A stretch of DNA of 64,000 nucleotides, from the NCBI RefSeq assembly GCF_025602895.1, contig NW_026516250.1, positions 62,001 through 126,000 on the forward strand, in the 5' to 3' direction. Below, one piece after another: positions 9,691 to 47,100 of this stretch (the first letter of the stretch is position 1; every line of letters starts with the position of its first letter). The notes below the pieces were generated by a model that did not search any database, had not been told where the DNA came from, and saw only the letters and a program-made list of their open reading frames with translations. The stretch comes from Polychytrium aggregatum. Taxonomy: Eukaryota > Chytridiomycota > Chytridiomycetes > Polychytriales. The position numbers and the translations under genes were made by a program.

Positions 9691-9795
9691 TGCCAAGCAA
9701 GAATGGGACAGTGCCCGCTATCCTTACAGCGATCAAGGCCCGAAGCTTGATGGTCTGTAGGCCGTATGATCGCAACCGCGTACACTTTATTCAGA

Positions 9796-9808
9796 AAAAA
9801 ACGGGACA
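9796..9808 (+). repeat. Left terminal inverted repeat
   Basis: AAAAAACGGGACA, the exact reverse complement of 13393-13405. The core is A-rich, and a similar sequence at 6833-6847 shares 15 bases with this end, so uniqueness is limited. Confidence 0.6.
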
Positions 9809-9880
9809 ATATAGCCGTTTCCATGAACATGTAGTATGTGCTGTGCTTGCGTCAAGCAAAGCCACAAGAAATAAAACAGA
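9796..9880 (-). ncRNA. Candidate guide-RNA (omega-RNA/fRNA) scaffold region 3' of the Fanzor gene
   Basis: Position-based prediction. In characterised Fanzor and TnpB loci the guide RNA overlaps the 3' end of the nuclease gene and the element end, with the guide taken from flanking DNA. Here the 85 bases between the Fanzor stop and the left repeat contain a perfect hairpin, TGCTTG-CGT-CAAGCA on the plus strand at 9844-9858. Transcription leftwards would place the guide in DNA left of 9796, in the bestrophin 3' flank. A minus-strand AATAAA at 9786-9791 lies just past the end. The RNA could extend into the last part of the coding sequence. No covariance or expression data are available. Confidence 0.35.
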
Positions 9881-12253
9881 TCACTTTGGCAGCCTCCGAG
9901 TGAAGACCGCCGGTCGCTCTCCGATCTCCACAATCGACCTGCATACTGTGATCATGTTGCGCGCCGCATTGACGTCGCGATTCCACACTGTCCGGCAGCT
10001 GGGATTCTTGCAGCTCCTGACAAAGTGGGAATTCGCAACACTGGGCGCATCGAGTCCTTCCAACCGAACTGGCTCCAGGCACTTGGAGCACACCTGCGAG
10101 GTGTTGAACTCGTTCGTCGAGGCCACCTTGACGCTTCCATGATGGTGATTGGGACGGCGTCGGTGGTGCTCGAATTGCTCAAAGTACCGAGCAAATCGCT
10201 GCCTCCGAGGGCTGGATGCATAGCCCTTGCCTTGCCGCCATGACGCATTGCCAAAGGCGATCACCACATCGGTCCGTATCGGGACGTGCTTCAGGACGGC
10301 CTTGCACATCCTGTCGACGGCCACTTGGCGCCTCTTGTGGCCCGTGAAGCGATGGTGACGGGCCTTCTTGCCAAGGTGGAAGTCGAGCTGCACTCGCAGC
10401 TCCGGTCGCAGGACATGGGTGAGATGAACTTTGAAAGCCTCCGAGGACGACACCTTGGGCGAGGGAGTGGTCGACATCCAGGTCTCGATGTCGAGTCGCT
10501 TCTTCTTGGCATTGTGCCAGTCGGTGTTGGACGTATGGCCACACATGTGCTGGTAGTGGCCATTGGAGAACGAGACCACCTCGTCTTGGTGGCCCGGTGC
10601 TTGGATGACCGCCGTGAAGATGGAGCCGACTCCAGGATCGATGCCAATCCAAGTGGTGCGGTTGGGGTCTGGGTCGCCGATGTGGGCCTGGATACGCTGT
10701 TCGGCAGTCGGAGGAGGCTCGATGGTCTCGGTGTGATCGGTTCGACGCACAAACTTGACGAGGCCGATGGTGCATCCAATGCCATCGGTGCTGATCTCGT
10801 AGTTGAACAGCTTCTTGTTCACGTCTCGCTCTTGGAAGAGGGAACTACGCAGCTTGAAGCAACTGCGCCAGAGACGATCCTGGTTGTTGATGCCGTCCTC
10901 ACCTTCTTCCTTGAGCTTGTCCCTGGTGAGTCCAAGGCGCTTCTTTGGACCCAGGAGTTGCCAAAGAGTGACCGTGTCAATCTTGACATACTTGGCCCTT
11001 GCAGTGCATAGAGGAACTATCGTGCACACGGCCGGAGGAGTGTCGACGGCGAGCTGCTTGAGTGCCCAGTTGAGTCTGGAAGCCAGCTTGTTGATCTTGG
11101 CCTTGGTGGTGCCGAGCTCAGACTTGGCCGTGGTGAACCTCTTGTCGTCGGAGGGAATGTCTTGGGTAGTGAGCTCGTCCAGCTTGGCCTGGCGCTGCAG
11201 CTCGGTGACTCGGAGGGCGGGCATGTCACAGTCGATCCACTTGTGGACATTGTCGACCATCTTGTCCCGGGCGAGGATTCCCACATGGTGTGAGAGGCGA
11301 TGGAGGGCCCGGAAGCGGTCCTGGTCGTTGCTGTACCGAAACTCGTCCAGGATGTGGCCAAACTCGGGATAGAGGAACTCGAGATCGGCCTTGGGTGGAG
11401 TCTGCCCTGGTTTCTCGAAGAGCTCGAGACAGGCCTCGATGGCTTCGTGCTTGTGCTTGTTGGCAGGGAATACAGCAGCACAGAAGCGACGAAGGAGTCG
11501 CCAGTAGGCCAGGTCGAGGTGGGTGGTGCAGTTGGTGGCATAGGCATTGACAGCGAGAGTGAGAAGCTGACTGTGAGCACCATCAGGCAGACGAGGGGCC
11601 GGAGGCAGGTCTGCGTGCCGAGTGGTCTGGTAGTCGCGAAAGGAAGCGACCAGATGCTTGTTGTATTTCTTGGTATCCCTGGCCGTCGAGAGGGCACCGG
11701 CCTGGACAATCTTGAAGCACTGGCGAACGAAAGCAGGGGTGGACTTGGAGATGACGGGGACGGGAAGATCCTGCTCGATGCACCGGAGGATGTGCAGGTT
11801 GAGCAGCCTGGATGCCTCGAACTGGATCTGGGTCATGGCCTCGACGGTGGCCTGGATCTTGTCGCGGAGAGCGGGATTGAGACAACAGCCATCCATGGTC
11901 TGCTTGAAGCAGCTGAACTGAGGGGCGGATGACCTTCCATCCACGAGTGGGACGACAGAACTCTTGAGGGGCCGGTATTTGGGACACCTGTTGGTGTTGC
12001 AACGTTCGTGATCGGTGCCATCGCACTGGCGACATCGCTTGCCAGTACTCGAGGAAGTAGATGGACCAGGCTCGGTGGGATCGACATCCATTGGATCTGC
12101 AGAAGCAGTGGTGGTGAGCAACGGAGCAACAGACGACCAAGCATGCGTGGGGTCAGAATACGAACCAGAGACAGGCTCCGACTGTGACTTGGCTTTCTTG
12201 GGCCTGGGTGGCCGAGGCTGGCCATCACCGGTACCCTTGCGCTTCGGAGGCAT
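9881..12253 (-). CDS. Fz: Fanzor RNA-guided nuclease (eukaryotic TnpB homologue), intact
   Basis: An uninterrupted 790-codon frame without introns. The C-terminus carries the Fanzor signature, RuvC Asp then [TS][TS]xx then a C4 zinc finger then RD. D539 lies in the motif WIGIDPGVGSIFTAV. 178 residues later comes T718-S719, followed by Cys722, Cys725, Cys748 and Cys753, and NRDVNAARN with D760. The block AFGNASW..GKGYASSP (about 666-680) is in the place where Fanzors have a rearranged RuvC-II site. The N-terminus has basic nuclear-localisation-like patches (PPKRK, PRPKKAK) and a CCHC-like knuckle (C74, C77, H82, C85 or C90). Family members cleave DNA guided by an RNA encoded at the element end. 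The gene is downstream of, and co-oriented with, the transposase. All catalytic and zinc residues I can locate are present, so activity is plausible but unproven. Confidence 0.93.
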   Translation of the reverse strand: MPPKRKGTGDGQPRPPRPKKAKSQSEPVSGSYSDPTHAWSSVAPLLTTTASADPMDVDPTEPGPSTSSSTGKRCRQCDGTDHERCNTNRCPKYRPLKSSVVPLVDGRSSAPQFSCFKQTMDGCCLNPALRDKIQATVEAMTQIQFEASRLLNLHILRCIEQDLPVPVISKSTPAFVRQCFKIVQAGALSTARDTKKYNKHLVASFRDYQTTRHADLPPAPRLPDGAHSQLLTLAVNAYATNCTTHLDLAYWRLLRRFCAAVFPANKHKHEAIEACLELFEKPGQTPPKADLEFLYPEFGHILDEFRYSNDQDRFRALHRLSHHVGILARDKMVDNVHKWIDCDMPALRVTELQRQAKLDELTTQDIPSDDKRFTTAKSELGTTKAKINKLASRLNWALKQLAVDTPPAVCTIVPLCTARAKYVKIDTVTLWQLLGPKKRLGLTRDKLKEEGEDGINNQDRLWRSCFKLRSSLFQERDVNKKLFNYEISTDGIGCTIGLVKFVRRTDHTETIEPPPTAEQRIQAHIGDPDPNRTTWIGIDPGVGSIFTAVIQAPGHQDEVVSFSNGHYQHMCGHTSNTDWHNAKKKRLDIETWMSTTPSPKVSSSEAFKVHLTHVLRPELRVQLDFHLGKKARHHRFTGHKRRQVAVDRMCKAVLKHVPIRTDVVIAFGNASWRQGKGYASSPRRQRFARYFEQFEHHRRRPNHHHGSVKVASTNEFNTSQVCSKCLEPVRLEGLDAPSVANSHFVRSCKNPSCRTVWNRDVNAARNMITVCRSIVEIGERPAVFTRRLPK

Positions 12254-12382
12254 GGGGGCAGAGGATGCTGGATGCCTGCCAGTGGTACTGGTCAGAGTAG
12301 AGACTTTTTTTTATCGTACAATAGCGCGATGATCAGATCAAGGCGAGATGAGGGAAGAAAGCAGCAGGACGAAGGTGTGGCA

Positions 12383-12389
12383 TTTATAC
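12383..12389 (-). promoter_or_regulatory. TATA box candidate for the Fanzor gene
   Basis: On the minus strand the sequence reads TATAAAT, 130 bp upstream of the Fanzor ATG and between the transposase stop and the Fanzor start. This would give Fanzor its own promoter, separate from transposase transcription. Confidence 0.5.
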
Positions 12390-12438
12390 CCGAGAGCAGG
12401 AGCCCGTCTTTGCGGGCTGGTTGGGGAAGTGACCCTGT

Positions 12439-13335
12439 TCAAAAATCGCCGAGAGGTTCAAGCCAGGGATTTGAGCGTGAAAATGGCGGAGTGATTGGAG
12501 GGAACTCAACCCCAAAATTGATGGGGACTAAACCCCAAAATGATGGGGACTCAACCCCAAAGAAGTTCTCGATGGGATTGAAGTCGGGTGAAGCAGGTGG
12601 GGTGAAGATCACTGACCATCCTCGGCGCTCGATGCAGTCCAGGACAGCCCTTGTCTTGTGCATGCTGACATTGTCCATCACAATCACAGAGTCGTCTGGG
12701 AAGCTCGCTCGCTCAAAGAACTCGACCATCGAGTGTGTTTTGAATGATGTGGGGATATACATGCGATGCAGCACACCAGAGTGGTTGATGGCAAATGCAG
12801 CCGAGACAGACTTGTGTTTCATGTGATTGCGCTGGCGAAGCGGAGCACCCTTCGGTGAGTATCCGTAAAGAGGGAAAATGGATCTCCTGATCCCTGTCTC
12901 GTCGACAAAAACGAATCGCCGCGGGTCAATGGAGCGGACCTGGTCCCTGAACTGTGCCACTCGCTCATCCAGTCGCTTGGACTTGTAGAGGTGTGTTGCC
13001 CTCTTGTGTGAGAGACCTGCTCGGTGGATGGCAGTGTGGCAGAGTGAGAGTGATACTTTCCTCTGGAGGATGGACTCGAGCTTGCATCGCAACACAGGAC
13101 CAGTCTGGAACGGGTCCTGTTCAATCAGGGTGCGAATGACTGGACATGCCTGCTCGAAGAAAGTGGATATGCGGGCTGGGACTCGGGGTGACTCGGTTGG
13201 CTTGCATCCTCGGTGCCATCGATGGATGGTGCTCTTGGATACACTGAATATGGAGGCGACCTTACGCAGGCTATGGATGAGGGCGTAGCATCGCAATGCG
13301 GCGGTGCGAAAGTCGGATGTGTGGCGAATGGTCAT
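12439..13335 (-). CDS. Tc1/IS630-type DD34E transposase, C-terminus altered by a tandem repeat
   Basis: 298 residues, no introns. An N-terminal helix-turn-helix region (about residues 15-45, ...KVASIFSVSKSTIHRW) is followed by a DDE core: D145 in FVFVDETGIRRS, D221 in VIVMDNVSMHKT, and E256 in PDFNPIENFF, with exactly 34 residues between the second and third acids. This is the Tc1/IS630 spacing. Directly after the catalytic Glu the protein runs into residues encoded by three copies of a 22-bp repeat (about 258-281) and then about 17 unrelated residues, so the usual C-terminal helix after the Glu seems lost or replaced. Function would be cut-and-paste mobilisation of the element that also carries Fanzor. 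Activity of this copy is doubtful. Confidence 0.9.
   Translation of the reverse strand: MTIRHTSDFRTAALRCYALIHSLRKVASIFSVSKSTIHRWHRGCKPTESPRVPARISTFFEQACPVIRTLIEQDPFQTGPVLRCKLESILQRKVSLSLCHTAIHRAGLSHKRATHLYKSKRLDERVAQFRDQVRSIDPRRFVFVDETGIRRSIFPLYGYSPKGAPLRQRNHMKHKSVSAAFAINHSGVLHRMYIPTSFKTHSMVEFFERASFPDDSVIVMDNVSMHKTRAVLDCIERRGWSVIFTPPASPDFNPIENFFGVESPSFWGLVPINFGVEFPPITPPFSRSNPWLEPLGDF
12500..12564. repeat. Tandem ~22-bp palindromic repeat in the transposase C-terminal codons
   Basis: Three units with the plus-strand form GGGGACTCAACCCCAAAATGAT (first unit GGGAACT..., second GGGGACTAAA...). Each contains a GGGG/CCCC inverted pair around a six-base loop. The array begins immediately after the codons of the catalytic NPIENFF motif. 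Confidence 0.85.
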
Positions 13336-13392
13336 GGCCAGCGCGCGATAACATTGGGTAACAAAATATTCGATGAATGGTCAAAACCTGGG

Positions 13393-13405
13393 TGTCCCGT
13401 TTTTT
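13393..13405 (-). repeat. Right terminal inverted repeat
   Basis: TGTCCCGTTTTTT on the plus strand, the perfect complement of the left repeat. It lies 57 bp upstream of the transposase ATG. Confidence 0.6.
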
Positions 13406-13704
13406 ATTGGATTGCCTGTAACATTTCTCCGTTTGGCTGGCAGCCAAAGTTTTGTTGTGGATTTGGGCAGCATGCTCTTGAATACATCCAGTCGATATCT
13501 ACGGGTGACAATCAACCGGCGCACCGATATGATGCTCCACGAAGCATGGCATCCCGTGCAGGGACGATGCAGGGTTGTTGGGCGGAGGTCCGCCGGCATC
13601 ATGTCCGCCGCGCGCTTTCCCCATCCCCGCCATTCTTCTCCTCTGCCATCTTGCAGCTCCTTTCGCTCTCATCTCAGCTGCTCACTCAGCCCCCAGAACA
13701 AACC
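13406..13704. other. Upstream region of xylose isomerase
   Basis: About 300 bases between the transposon end and the xylose isomerase ATG. It ends in a pyrimidine-rich stretch, (C/T)-rich at 13615-13700, typical of the leaders in this window. No TATA box seen. Confidence 0.5.
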
Positions 13705-41124: not shown

Positions 41125-44100
41125 TCAAGCGGATCGAAAAAGAGACAGAGATTCTTGGAGGGCATTCCGCCGGGAAGGGAGTTGATTGGACATCCGGCCA
41201 CTGAGGGTCATGAGGTCTTGTTCAAGAGCTTTTACATTTTCGGTAAGCTGCTCAATCAAATCATCGCGATGATTTACTTCGATAGCCATATCGCGACGAA
41301 GAGCTTTGGTTTCTTCCATCGAGTGAATGAGATCCCATTTTGTACTAAGGAGTTCGGTTTGGCTTTGCTGGAGCTCCACCTCACGGCTAGTATGGCCATT
41401 GATCGTTCGCTCGAGGTCGCGGATGTAGGCGCATTTGTTGCCAATATCATTGATAAGGGACGCGATTCTGTCGTCTTTTTCGAAACAACTTCGCTGCAGG
41501 TCACCGACACATTCATCGAGGACAACACATCGCTCCGAGTGGAACTCGTATTGGGAATGGACATCCTCGAACTTTTCTTCAAGGAGTTGATACTGGTGCT
41601 GGAGCTCATCGAATTTGGCTTGAAGACGACCGATAATCGATGATGACTGAGAGAGTTTGTCGTTGAGGGAAGTGACTTCTTGACTTTGGGTCTCGAGTGC
41701 TTCTGCGGCAAGTCGGAGGTTTGACTGTGCAGCCAGCAGAAGCTGTTCTCGAGAATCTAGTGATTGTCGTAGATGGGAGAGGATATCTTCGAGCTGACCC
41801 TTGTGGCTGTTGGATCCATCGAGCCAGGATTGCAGCTCGTTGATTCTGTGGTTGGCTGATTCGAGCTGGCTGTTCTTATCATTCAACTCGTGCTGGACAT
41901 TCTTGAGTTGTTCTTCCAGTTGACCCTTGTGGCTGTTGGATCCATCGAGCCAGGATTGCAGCTCGTTGATCCGGTGGTTGGCTGATTCGAGCTGGCCATT
42001 CTTATCATTCAACTCGTGCTGGACATTCTTGAGTTGCTCTTCCAGTTGACCCTTGTGGCTGTTGGATCCATCGAGCCAGGATTGCAGCTCGTTGATCCGA
42101 TGGTTGGCTGATTCGAGCTGGCTGTTCTTATCATTCAACTCGTGCTGGACATTCTTGAGTTGCTCTTCCAGTTGACCCTTGTGGCTGTTGGATCCATCGA
42201 GCCAGGATTGCAGCTCGTTGATTCTGTGGTTGGCTGATTCGAGCTGGCCATTCTTATCATTCAGTTCATTCTGGACGTGTCGCAGTTGCTCTTCAAGTTG
42301 ACCCTTGTGGCTGTTGGATCCATCGAGCCAGGATTGCAGCTCGTTGATTCTGTGGTTGGCTGATTCGAGCTGGCCATTCTTATCATTCAACTCGTGCTGG
42401 ACATTCTTGAGTTGCTCTTCCAGTTGACCCTTGTGGCTGTTGGATCCATCGAGCCAGGATTGCAGCTCGTTGATCCGATGGTTGGCTGATTCGAGCTGGC
42501 TGTTCTTATCATTCAACTCGTGCTGGACATTCTTGAGTTGCTCTTCCAGTTGACCCTTGTGGCTGTTGGATCCATCGAGCCAGGATTGCAGCTCGTTGAT
42601 TCTGTGGTTGGCTGCCTCGAGCTGGCCATTCTTATCATTCAACTCGTGCTGGACATTCTTGAGTTGTTCTTCCAGTTGACCCTTGTGGCTGTTGGATCCA
42701 TCGAGCCAGGATTGCAGCTCGTTGATTCTGTGGTTGGCTGATTCGAGCTGGCCATTCTTATCATTCAGTTCATTCTGGACGTGTCGCAGTTGCTCTTCAA
42801 GTTGACCCTTGTGGCTGTTGGATCCATCGAGCCAGGATTGCAGCTCGTTGATTCTGTGGTTGGCTGCCTCGAGCTGGCCATTCTTATCATTCAACTCGTG
42901 CTGGACATTCTTGAGTTGCTCTTCCAGTTGACCCTTGTGGCTGTTGGATCCATCGAGCCAGGATTGCAGCTCGTTGATTCTGTGGTTGGCTGCCTCGAGC
43001 TGGCCATTCTTATCATTCAACTCGTGCTGGACATTCTTGAGTTGTTCTTCCAGTTGACCCTTGTGGCTGTTGGATCCATCGAGCCAGGATTGCAGCTCGT
43101 TGATTCTGTGGTTGGCTGATTCGAGCTGGCTGTTCTTGTCATTCAACTCGTGCTGGACATTCTTGAGTTGTTCTTCCAGTTGACCCTTGTGGCTGTTGGA
43201 TCCATCGAGCCAGGATTGCAGCTCGTTGATTCTGTGGTTGGCTGATTCGAGCTGGCTGTTCTTGTCATTCAACTCGTGCTGGACATTCTTGAGTTGTTCT
43301 TCCAGTTGACCCTTGTGGCTGTTGGATCCATCGAGCCAGGATTGCAGCTCGTTGATCCGATGGTTGGCTGATTCGAGCTGGCTGTTCTTATCATTCAACT
43401 CGTGCTGGACATTCTTGAGTTGCTCTTCCAGTTGACCCTTGTGGCTGTTGGATCCATCGAGCCAGGATTGCAGCTCGTTGATTCTGTGGTTGGCTGATTC
43501 GAGCTGGCTGTTCTTGTCATTCAACTCGTGCTGGACATTCTTGAGTTGTTCTTCCAGTTGACCCTTGTGGCTGTTGGATCCATCGAGCCAGGATTGCAGC
43601 TCGTTGATCCGATGGTTGGCTGATTCGAGCTGGCTGTTCTTATCATTCAACTCGTGCTGGACATTCTTGAGTTGCTCTTCCAGTTGACCCTTGTGGCTGT
43701 TGGATCCATCGAGCCAGGATTGCAGCTCGTTGATTCTGTGGTTGGCTGATTCGAGCTGGCTGTTCTTGTCATTCAACTCGTGCTGGACATTCTTGAGTTG
43801 TTCTTCCAGTTGACCCTTGTGGCTGTTGGATCCATCGAGCCAGGATTGCAGCTCGTTGATTCTGTGGTTGGCTGCCTCGAGCTGGCCATTCTTATCATTC
43901 AACTCGTGCTGGACATTCTTGAGTTGTTCTTCCAGTTGACCCTTGTGGCTGTTGGATCCATCGAGCCAGGATTGCAGCTCGTTGATTCTGTGGTTGGCTG
44001 ATTCGAGCTGGCCATTCTTATCATTCAGTTCATTCTGGACGTGTCGCAGTTGCTCTTCAAGTTGACCCTTGTGGCTGTTGGATCCATCGAGCCAGGATTG

Positions 44101-47100
44101 CAGCTCGTTGATTCTGTGGTTGGCTGCCTCGAGCTGGCCATTCTTATCATTCAACTCGTGCTGGACATTCTTGAGTTGTTCTTCCAGTTGACCCTTGTGG
44201 CTGTTGGATCCATCGAGCCAGGATTGCAGCTCGTTGATTCTGTGGTTGGCTGATTCGAGCTGGCTGTTCTTGTCATTCAACTCGTGCTGGACATTCTTGA
44301 GTTGTTCTTCCAGTTGACCCTTGTGGCTGTTGGATCCATCGAGCCAGGATTGCAGCTCGTTGATCCGATGGTTGGCTGATTCGAGCTGGCTGTTCTTGTC
44401 ATTCAACTCGTGCTGGACATTCTTGAGTTGTTCTTCCAGTTGACCCTTGTGGCTGTTGGATCCATCGAGCCAGGATTGCAGCTCGTTGATCCGATGGTTG
44501 GCTGATTCGAGCTGGCTGTTCTTATCATTCAACTCGTGCTGGACATTCTTGAGTTGCTCTTCCAGTTGACCCTTGTGGCTGTTGGATCCATCGAGCCAGG
44601 ATTGCAGCTCGTTGATTCTGTGGTTGGCTGCCTCGAGCTGGCCATTCTTATCATTCAACTCGTGCTGGACATTCTTGAGTTGTTCTTCCAGTTGACCCTT
44701 GTGGCTGTTGGATCCATCGAGCCAGGATTGCAGCTCGTTGATTCTGTGGTTGGCTTCCTCCAGCGTTTTTTTCCATTGCGCCTCCGATGTTTTCAGTTCC
44801 CTGAGCTCCTCCTTCATCTCCTCTATATGTCTCCTCAATTGAGGATCACTCCCGTTCTCACCTCGTGTTGCGTCATTCGCGATGGCTCCCTCTTGATTCC
44901 GTCCGCCGTCGCTTTCCCCCTTGTCGTCCCCATTTCCTTTGTCGCTGGAATTTATACCTCCATCTCCCTCTAATTCATCCCTCTCACATTCGTATCCACT
45001 TATCTTGATCTCCATTGGAGCCTCTGTCGCTTGATCGCCGCCTTCATCTTCCTCACTGTGCTTCAGTTTGAGTGTATCGATTATCAGAGAGCTTTCTGCG
45101 AGTTCTCGCTTTAGCGATAGCGCCTCGATTCTCTGTAGCCGCAGCTGCGTTTCAAGGTCCTTCGTTCGCTTCTCTGCAATATTTCGAAGTCGTTTGCTCT
45201 CCATCATTTCACTTTTCAATGAGCGTATTAGCTCGCTCACATCTTCATCTGGCGGTCCGGTATTCTCGATTGTTGATTTGGCCTCACTTCCCTGGGTTTC
45301 GTGGATCAACGCGCTGTCTTTTCTTGGATCGGTTTCAGGCAAGGTCCCATCATTTTCACATACGGCATTGGAAGATTGCTTTGTCGGCGTTCCTCCTCGG
45401 GAGCCCGTTCCTCTCCGGACCTTGAGTCAATCATGGACATTATCAGTGTTACATAAGGTATACATCAGCTGACGAAAATGCGGTGTCTGGCTTACCAAGC
45501 CCCGGACTCGTTCGGATAGACTTGGTCGATGACTGAGACCTCCGGCCTGGGACTCGCGGGAGAGATGAAACTATCGTTGTTTACTGTTAGTTCAATGCAT
45601 GAGCTTCATATCGTTCCTTCCTCTGCCTTGGGCCATTCTTCTTTACCTCTGTGGATGCGTCCACCCATACATCCGCCGAGCCTTCAACCTCGCTTTGGCT
45701 GCAAGCCGAGAGTACGCTTGTGCGTCTGCTGTGTCGATCATCGTTTGCCATTGAATCCCTTGCTGTGACATCATCGAGGGCGTCCTCGCACTCGCCTTCG
45801 ACCACGAGTAGCTCATTCCAAGGCTCACGGGATAATACGCTTGCGTTTTTGAGATAGTCAACCGGCCGCTTGCCTTCCTTGTCTTGTATGGAGATATCTG
45901 CCCCAAATGAAACTAGGATCCGAGCAATGTCGAGACTTGCTTCGGCCGCAGCTAGATGCAAGGCCGTCCTGATGCGGTGTGCATTCTGTCGGTGAGTTCC
46001 TGGGTCGAAGACGCGCAGACCCACATATCGAATCACGGGGCGCTGCACAACCGGTGTGATAGAATCTCCCCTCTGCGTGCGCACTTACTGGCCCTCGTAA
46101 TTTCGCTTATTGCAGGTCTTGAGTCTGCTGCACAGATATCCCACAAGCCCAGGCATTTGCAGACGGGTCGCGTGGTGGAGCAGGGTAAAGCCGGTCTGCC
46201 AAAACCAGGGCATCATGGGTCTCAGATACGACGAGCTCGGCTGGTTATCGCACAGCAGCTTGACATCATCCACTTGTTTGTTCGTGGGAATCCTACCTTG
46301 TCGATAACGGTAATCGAGGCTTGGTGTTCAACGAGATACTTGAACAGCTCCTCTTGCCCGCCCAGCAATGCGTAGTGGAGAGCGCTGCATCCATAAACAT
46401 CAATCAAATCCACGTCGGCAGAGTTGTTGACAAGCAGCTCTGTAATTGCTCTGTTTCCGTTGATACATGCCTGTGGGAAAGCGTGGTGAGTTTCAAGTTC
46501 TGAGACCCCTGTGTCATCTATGCCATTCACATTTCGTCGCATAGCAAGATCAAATACCATACTGGATTGCCACGCAATACCCTATTCCCGCTGCACAATG
46601 CCGACAAACACGGGCCCGGCAGCCGACGAGCGAGTATGCGAGACGCGGAGACAAGTGGAAACCAGGCTGCAGACTCACCTGTATCAGCGGAGTGCGTCCT
46701 TCGGCGTCCCGGGCATCTGGATTGACCTTCTTCAGATAGAGCTCGCGCTTGTTTGCCGGGGTATATTCGAGCAGGAACTTTGCAATGTCCAGGAGGTCTT
46801 TCTGGACGGCAATGTGCAGAGCAGTGAAGCGGTGGAAGGTGTCGACTTTGTTGATATCGCGTGAGCGCTGTAGAAGCAGCTTCTTGCATCGCTCGATGTT
46901 GTTCTCGTACACGGCCTTTTGCAGCGAGTTGAGTTTCTTTGGGGTAATTGGCGAGGGTGTCTTGAGGGTATCCTTGGTGAAGGCCAAGAAGTCGGCGGCA
47001 ACAGAGGTGTCGATGGCGAGCCCGGATTTGCGCATGCGCTGCGTCCCAGACGACGGACCAACCTCGGGGAAGGATGTCACGGACGACGAGCGAGATGACC

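Follow-up and report, generated by a model that had tools for sequence, protein, structure and literature searches.

A Fanzor1 nuclease aboard an abundant TA-inserting DD34E transposon family in the chytrid Polychytrium aggregatum

What role do Fanzors play for the transposons that carry them? The question is raised by a 64,000-nt stretch of the Polychytrium aggregatum genome (assembly GCF_025602895.1, contig NW_026516250.1, positions 62,001 to 126,000 of the forward strand; hereafter the window, in whose coordinates all features are given), where a Fanzor1 gene and a DD34E transposase gene lie together in a 3,636-bp transposon. Between the repeats of the chytrid element that has been studied most, no transposase was found (PMC10432273). 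Here, one fungal genome unites a transposase, a nuclease, a predicted guide-RNA end, protein-less derivatives, a target-adjacent motif (TAM) derived from sequence, high copy number, and two haplotypes at 11 of 21 sites, and this combination makes retention by cutting and copying testable. RNA-guided retention is the mechanism that we favor, unproven as it is. An earlier note on the window had recognized a Fanzor inside a Tc1/IS630-type DD34E transposon and drawn a link to chytrids; profile matches for both proteins and the identity of the host bear this out. The note also took the element to be undescribed. No paper naming Polychytrium and Fanzor together was found, with most subscription papers and supplements lying outside the literature search; elements of this kind, which pair Fanzor1 and a mariner-type transposase, have been known since 2013 (PMC3627910). 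The Polychytrium element adds to these known elements, and its family is unusually complete and abundant.

When the genome was searched with a 3,610-bp query, 25 places, the window copy counted, spanned it wholly or nearly among the best 40 of 1,219 candidates; at the DNA level, the 24 other long places were 94 to 96% identical to the window copy. The 20 best of these 24 were aligned with the window copy to map the ends. Their flanks differ, except that two of them (L042 and L044) occupy one site. The element starts with CACTTTATTCAG... at 9783 and finishes with ...GGATTGCCTG at 13418. Ends at 9796 and 13405, as proposed in the earlier note, were rejected, since the conserved sequence of the 20 other copies extends outward to 9783 and 13418. 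Copies with common ends thus exist in number, at boundaries other than those first drawn, and the 13-bp inverted repeats reported before are real, being only the inner half of 26-bp imperfect terminal inverted repeats (9783..9808 on the forward strand and 13393..13418 on the reverse strand, 19 of 26 positions identical). The dinucleotide TA flanks both ends in 20 of the 21 copies, window copy included; the exception is L050, which has CA on the left. In the window, these TAs are at 9781..9782 and 13419..13420. They were placed by copy comparison and by aligning the joined flanks with unoccupied repeats (L068 for the left TA), and these relatives, all distant, suggest that the TA is a target-site duplication.

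The element belongs to a large TA-inserting family of the Tc1/mariner/IS630 superfamily with Fanzor1 aboard. Its right-end 14-mer has 354 exact matches in the genome, diverged relatives counted, and its left-end 27-mer has 215 (reversed and left-end controls, 0 each). Among 30 right-end loci extracted, at least 7 are diverged relatives (L010, L014, L016, L020, and L030 to L032); in five of these (L010, L014, L016, L030, and L032), no left end was found by fuzzy search. A right-end partner was assigned to 68 of the 100 first-listed left ends, giving, by length, 26 complete elements (~3.74 kb), 16 of the window type, 12 of 3.2 to 3.55 kb, 8 shorter than 400 bp, 5 of ~1.1 kb, and 1 other; for the remaining 32, the partner lies outside the right ends listed or the end differs. 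We considered hypermutation resembling repeat-induced point mutation as a source of the differences among copies and rejected it: the substitutions are of mixed types (C>T 141, G>A 140, T>C 109, A>G 85, and 298 transversions), and most differences in each copy are shared rather than private.

The Fanzor gene occupies 9881..12253 on the reverse strand and encodes 790 amino acids with a match to the Pfam TNB domain (PF07282, E = 6.5e-9). The C-terminal motif published for Fanzors, D-X(125,275)-[TS][TS]-X2-C4 finger-X(5,50)-RD (PMC3627910), is present as D539, T718-S719, C722/C725/C748/C753, and R759-D760. The open reading frame (ORF) is intact and carries E715 as well, so the earlier description of a complete gene with all of its signature residues was correct. 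In an alignment of 12 sequences, 10 from the window family, E715 is invariant; it lies just ahead of the TS motif and lines up with the Glu in DEYKTS of SpuFz1. When a profile of 12 sequences was compared with Protein Data Bank structures, PpFz1 (9cf0, E = 1.3e-6) and SpuFz1 (8gkh, E = 1.7e-6) ranked first, followed by weaker matches to LaTranC (E = 0.0062) and GtFz1 (E = 0.023). The PpFz1 match is itself weak and confined to residues ~448 to 789. A single-sequence phmmer search of the same structures returned no Fanzor at E = 10, and the full-length protein had no match at E = 1e-3 among 5.8 billion proteins; its C-terminal region had four database matches, two of which are P. aggregatum gene models. 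Judged by the profile E values, the window protein is nearer to known Fanzor1 than to TnpB or Cas12. Fanzor2 was rejected as its identity: Fanzor2 is found in elements of the IS607 type, which carry a serine recombinase, and the transposase here is an IS630 DDE enzyme. The ORF is a probable RNA-guided DNA-cutting enzyme.

Stop-free frames were found in 47 of 57 full-length frames scored (the best 57 of 1,276 candidates), and 19 of the 25 long copies fetched have a frame of 788 to 790 amino acids from the usual start. Across these 25 copies, the ratio of nonsynonymous to synonymous polymorphism (pN/pS) is 0.30 for shared variants and 0.41 for private ones; Fanzor variants are under purifying selection.

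The transposase ORF (12439..13335, reverse strand) points the same way as the Fanzor gene, as noted before, and encodes an IS630/Tc1 DD34E enzyme of 298 amino acids (NF033545, E = 1.4e-33; DDE_3, E = 1.2e-21) with the triad D145/D221/E256, in which 34 residues separate D221 from E256. After NPIENFFG, beyond the catalytic Glu, a tail encoded by a 22- to 23-bp minisatellite in three copies (12494..12561) replaces the normal one. The complete transposase, found in the 3,736-bp copy L064, has 310 amino acids (DDE_3, E = 2.7e-23). Among the 25 long copies, which were mostly picked for likeness to the window copy, the frame is 268 amino acids long in 13, of other lengths in 11, and of 310 amino acids in L064; in a genome-wide DDE_3 search, complete-length frames are common. 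In the part ahead of the minisatellite, pN/pS in the 25 copies is 0.20 for shared and 0.54 for private variants. Transposase, nuclease, and ends are therefore kept together in the family, as the earlier note had it for this locus, with the qualification that the window copy is probably nonautonomous because its transposase is altered at the C terminus.

By analogy with Fanzor1 systems described in PMC10432273 and PMC10711439, the guide RNA would be read from the end of the Fanzor transcript. The predicted omegaRNA scaffold (9781..9930, reverse strand) comprises the 3′ end of the Fanzor gene, the left terminal inverted repeat, and the TA; the predicted guide, its length taken as 20 nt, is the first sequence beyond the TA (9761..9780, reverse strand). 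For the 150-nt Fanzor-strand end through the TA, the folding energy is −49.1 kcal/mol (z = −3.27), a value that none of 200 shuffles equals, and shorter pieces stand out less (z = −1.98 for 100 nt and −2.15 for 102 nt). One of three related ends tested, L083, also beats its shuffles (z = −2.17). The fold predicted for the window copy has a hairpin made by the inverted repeat, and the structure is closed by GUGUA at the terminus, TA counted. This fits the report that Fanzor1 scaffolds include inverted repeats and target duplications (PMC10711439). An Rfam scan of the region yielded just two subthreshold matches, to unrelated families, and a DNA alignment of five guide-RNA ends was too divergent for counting covariation.

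The short members of the family bear on the same region. The 308- to 309-bp class retains 214 nt of the left and 97 nt of the right of the element, and the 1.1-kb class retains 447 and 661 nt, respectively, so that the predicted guide-RNA region survives in both of the short classes that were sequenced. They are akin to the Fanzor-less “ghost” loci of Spu-1, which likewise retain the RNA end. Guides that match the element itself were looked for and rejected: none of 35 flanks had a 12-base exact match to 35 elements. At L037 (C13:461920), a window-family copy has its left end directly beside the right end of a diverged relative, and the guide of that copy would therefore match a transposon end.

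If the left flank serves as guide, a TAM should be visible on the opposite side. Of 180 exact right ends, 174 have an A directly after the TA, against a window background of 415 of 2,832 TA steps followed by A on both strands (14.7%). The mirror base, T ahead of the left TA, occurs in 40 of 215 left ends, which is near background; in the 21 aligned copies, the base ahead of the left TA is C in 8, A in 5, G in 5, and T in 3, and their left flanks have no base preference. The one-sided A predicts the TAM 5′-TTA-3′ on the Fanzor-sense strand (13419..13421, reverse strand), which would consist of the TA target and one host T opposite the guide; the biased side is the side that such a TAM requires. 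The prediction presupposes that the A is a host base. That it is instead part of the element is very improbable, even though its 97% conservation is near that of ordinary element positions. The searches gave no true empty allele, and L068, the best of the unoccupied relatives, is just 65% identical and has GA at the expected TA. The flanks of the window copy, joined at a single TA, nevertheless align with L068 gap-free across the junction, and the alignments to L066 and L067 cross it with a one-base gap ~12 nt away (that to L069 stops short). Gap-free spans also occur in tandem arrays, with at least two BLAST alignments crossing the joined site at L052 and units judged by eye to align without gaps at L047. 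The A after the right TA thus seems to belong to the host.

The predicted motif has a parallel in Spu-1. There, CA is conserved ahead of the 5′ repeat and, followed by TA, equals the measured TAM, CATA (PMC10432273), so that one-sided conserved bases occur upstream of the 5′ repeat in both elements, CA there and T here. PMC11423790 gives CATA, TTAA, and ATN as Fanzor1 TAMs; one passage pairs CATA/TTAA with GtFz1/SpuFz1, and a later one gives TTAA for GtFz1, a reading that agrees with CATA for SpuFz1 in the 2023 paper (PMC10432273). The predicted TTA is akin to the TTAA of GtFz1; the profile match to that protein is weak.

The same bias might have a different source. Fanzor could be a passenger in site choice, and the one-sided TAA could reflect a transposase that prefers its targets asymmetrically. 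The bias could arise at insertion; the two ends differ at 7 of 26 positions, and the same TAA is seen at 309-bp copies that lack the Fanzor gene (L022 and L024). On the other hand, DDE transposases of the Tc1/mariner/IS630 superfamily usually have symmetric, palindromic target preferences. The left side here is near background, and the bias lies where the TAM model demands it. Moreover, short copies keep the predicted guide-RNA end, and Fanzor supplied in trans could act on them. We regard the passenger explanation as possible and rather less than even in likelihood.

We searched 21 sites with joined flanks for a second haplotype. The sites (12 + 9) were picked where both flanks were to hand, leaving out three copies from already known pairs and one tandem-array site; all 40 of 40 candidates were scored for the first 12 sites and the best 40 of 184 for the other 9. 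A second haplotype was found at 11 of the 21 sites (6 + 5), and at these 11 both haplotypes are occupied. No empty allele was found at any of the 21 sites, and hence no empty-site allele whose boundaries conflict with those of the element.

Adding two chance finds, L041/L028 and L042/L044, to the 11 pairs from the searches gave 13 allele pairs, whose flanks differ at 18 of 6,921 positions (0.26%), 8 of the 18 in L050/L085. Two 309-bp pairs differ at 1 and 0 of 309 positions. In eight pairs of long copies from the searches, 109 to 161 bases are different (3.0 to 4.8%), against a mean of 4.18% for nonallelic pairs (n = 397); the chance-found L042/L044 pair has 16 differences in 3,631 (0.44%). 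A full-length copy stands opposite a 308-bp copy (L045/L062) or a 1.1-kb copy (L041/L028) at the same site on the other haplotype, and at the L050, L054, and L058 sites, the window type on one haplotype faces the complete type, by length, on the other.

Two-state segmentation revealed near-identical tracts covering 22% of L039/L060, 21% of L054/L064, 23% of L049/L086, 51% of L058/L084, and 86% of L042/L044; four other long pairs, including that of the window copy, have none. In four of the pairs, the tracts are 333 to 847 bp with 0 to 2 differences, plus one of 782 bp with 3, and the fifth pair is more than 86% covered. Some tract is also shared in 50 of 370 nonallelic pairs, covering no more than 15%, and simulation of independent sites, which ignores short-range linkage, gave tracts in 0 of 400. 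As far as the coordinates match, the point at which L058/L084 changes from complete to window type falls in a nonidentical patch. Linkage between variable sites drops to background within ~25 bp. Barring assembly error, we read this pattern as frequent ectopic gene conversion over many events.

Assembly error would mean that reads or consensus were mixed among similar copies and that the long-copy differences reflect no turnover. The linkage scale is a warning in this respect, as ~25 bp is very short for biology, and the effect is confined to long copies, as trouble in assembling long repeats would give. The allele comparison rests on assembled sequence. Of two control families tried, neither served: a long interspersed nuclear element (LINE) family was too uniform for testing linkage, and DDE_3 copies appeared, by frame lengths and places alone, to be mostly the window family. 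Such an artefact is nonetheless unlikely. Against it stand the sharp tracts in five pairs with none in the simulations, the near-identical 309-bp alleles, and the closeness of the haplotypes adjoining the window copy (16 mismatches in 9,720 bp), and the purifying selection on the variants argues that they are not random errors. A weaker point comes from an unrelated dispersed repeat with 17 places: when these are paired by score, 14 form 7 equal-score pairs and 3 are single.

We consider it fairly probable, overall, that the family is a TA-inserting DD34E transposon whose Fanzor is guided by the copy's own flank, uses a TTA TAM, and has the element copied back at empty sites. The transposase would move the element by cut-and-paste, the window copy probably being mobilized by transposase from complete copies. 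The Fanzor transcript would run on across the left inverted repeat and the duplicated TA, this last part being the omegaRNA scaffold, and the next 14 to 20 nt of host flank would be the guide, so that each copy would be programmed for its own empty site. Licensed by TTA, Fanzor would cut the unoccupied site on the sister or homologous chromosome, and repair of the cut site would copy the element back in. What computation has shown is the element with its ends and the TA on either side, the identity of the Fanzor1 and of the DD34E transposase, the one-sided TTA, the purifying selection, and the occupancy of both haplotypes at 11 sites; guide RNA, TAM use, cutting, and copy-back are all inferred steps of this scheme. 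Several observations weigh against it. The predicted RNA fold surpasses its shuffles just moderately and varies with the length folded, a 120-nt fold reaching only z = −0.89 with 40 of 200 shuffles as good, and the related ends L020 (z = 0.06) and L031 (z = −0.32) do not surpass their shuffles. Insertions older than the haplotype divergence would also leave no empty alleles, and most long alleles are unlike, whereas simple homing should make alleles alike.

Because simple homing gives like alleles, the observed turnover would need template switching among copies during repair or breaks inside copies, which we offer as speculation. In a stronger form of the idea, the element would be a eukaryotic RNA-guided homing transposon in which transposase excision or Fanzor cleavage repeatedly reopens occupied sites and template-switching repair refills them and rewrites the copies. 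If true, this would account for the missing empty alleles, the one-sided TTA, long and short occupants of one site on the two haplotypes, and mosaics near linkage equilibrium; we hold it to be unlikely.

Among known systems, Spu-1 (SPu-1) with SpuFz1 of Spizellomyces punctatus shares with the Polychytrium element a Fanzor1, a chytrid host, a TA duplication, and multiple copies. As described in PMC3627910 and PMC10432273, Spu-1 differs in its 2.1-kb length, its protein of 633 amino acids, its 17 to 19 full-length copies, and its repeats, between which no transposase was found; the Polychytrium element has its own transposase gene and more full-length Fanzor frames (at least 57 scored). PGv-1 and PUl-1 likewise combine Fanzor1 and a mariner-type transposase in one element with TA duplications. 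In PMC3627910, PGv-1 and its close relatives are described as single-copy and virus-linked, and PGv-1 has a further endonuclease gene, unlike the Polychytrium family with its many copies in a fungal genome. TnpB of IS200/IS605 elements, proposed in PMC11870625 as a retention device or gene drive in plasmids, is likewise an RNA-guided nuclease that would act on empty sites; that case is bacterial and involves another transposase and TnpB instead of Fanzor.

A second Fanzor family (loci L070 to L083) is ~53% identical to the window family over the part compared. Among 70 matches listed, 67 are further places at 90 to 97%, and ~12 have open frames of ~900 amino acids or more. The predicted guide-RNA ends of this family and its relatives have the tips GACUGUA and, in several copies but not in L078 and L079, UACAGUC. 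In 10 of 14 sampled 3′ ends (L070 to L077, L080, and L081), a common downstream flank, AGTATCTCGCACTG..., with small differences, is followed by a GT repeat, and the family seems to have a guide-RNA end with a fixed guide captured in another repeat. Two public P. aggregatum gene models (P0122 and P0123, with a male-sterility domain and an F-box) include fused Fanzor fragments, through either mis-annotation or capture. The F-box model has a 99% genome match in three blocks that cover it, its unique part too, which identifies the host as P. aggregatum or a strain very close to it.

Elsewhere in the window, positions 41660 to 44857 hold a 126-bp (42-codon) tandem repeat of 24 in-register copies within a coiled-coil–like ORF of 1,405 amino acids. 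LINE-like reverse-transcriptase copies with near-equal scores number well over 100 in the genome; many have frames of 1,284 amino acids, and they are grouped on many contigs in clusters that are possibly centromeric.

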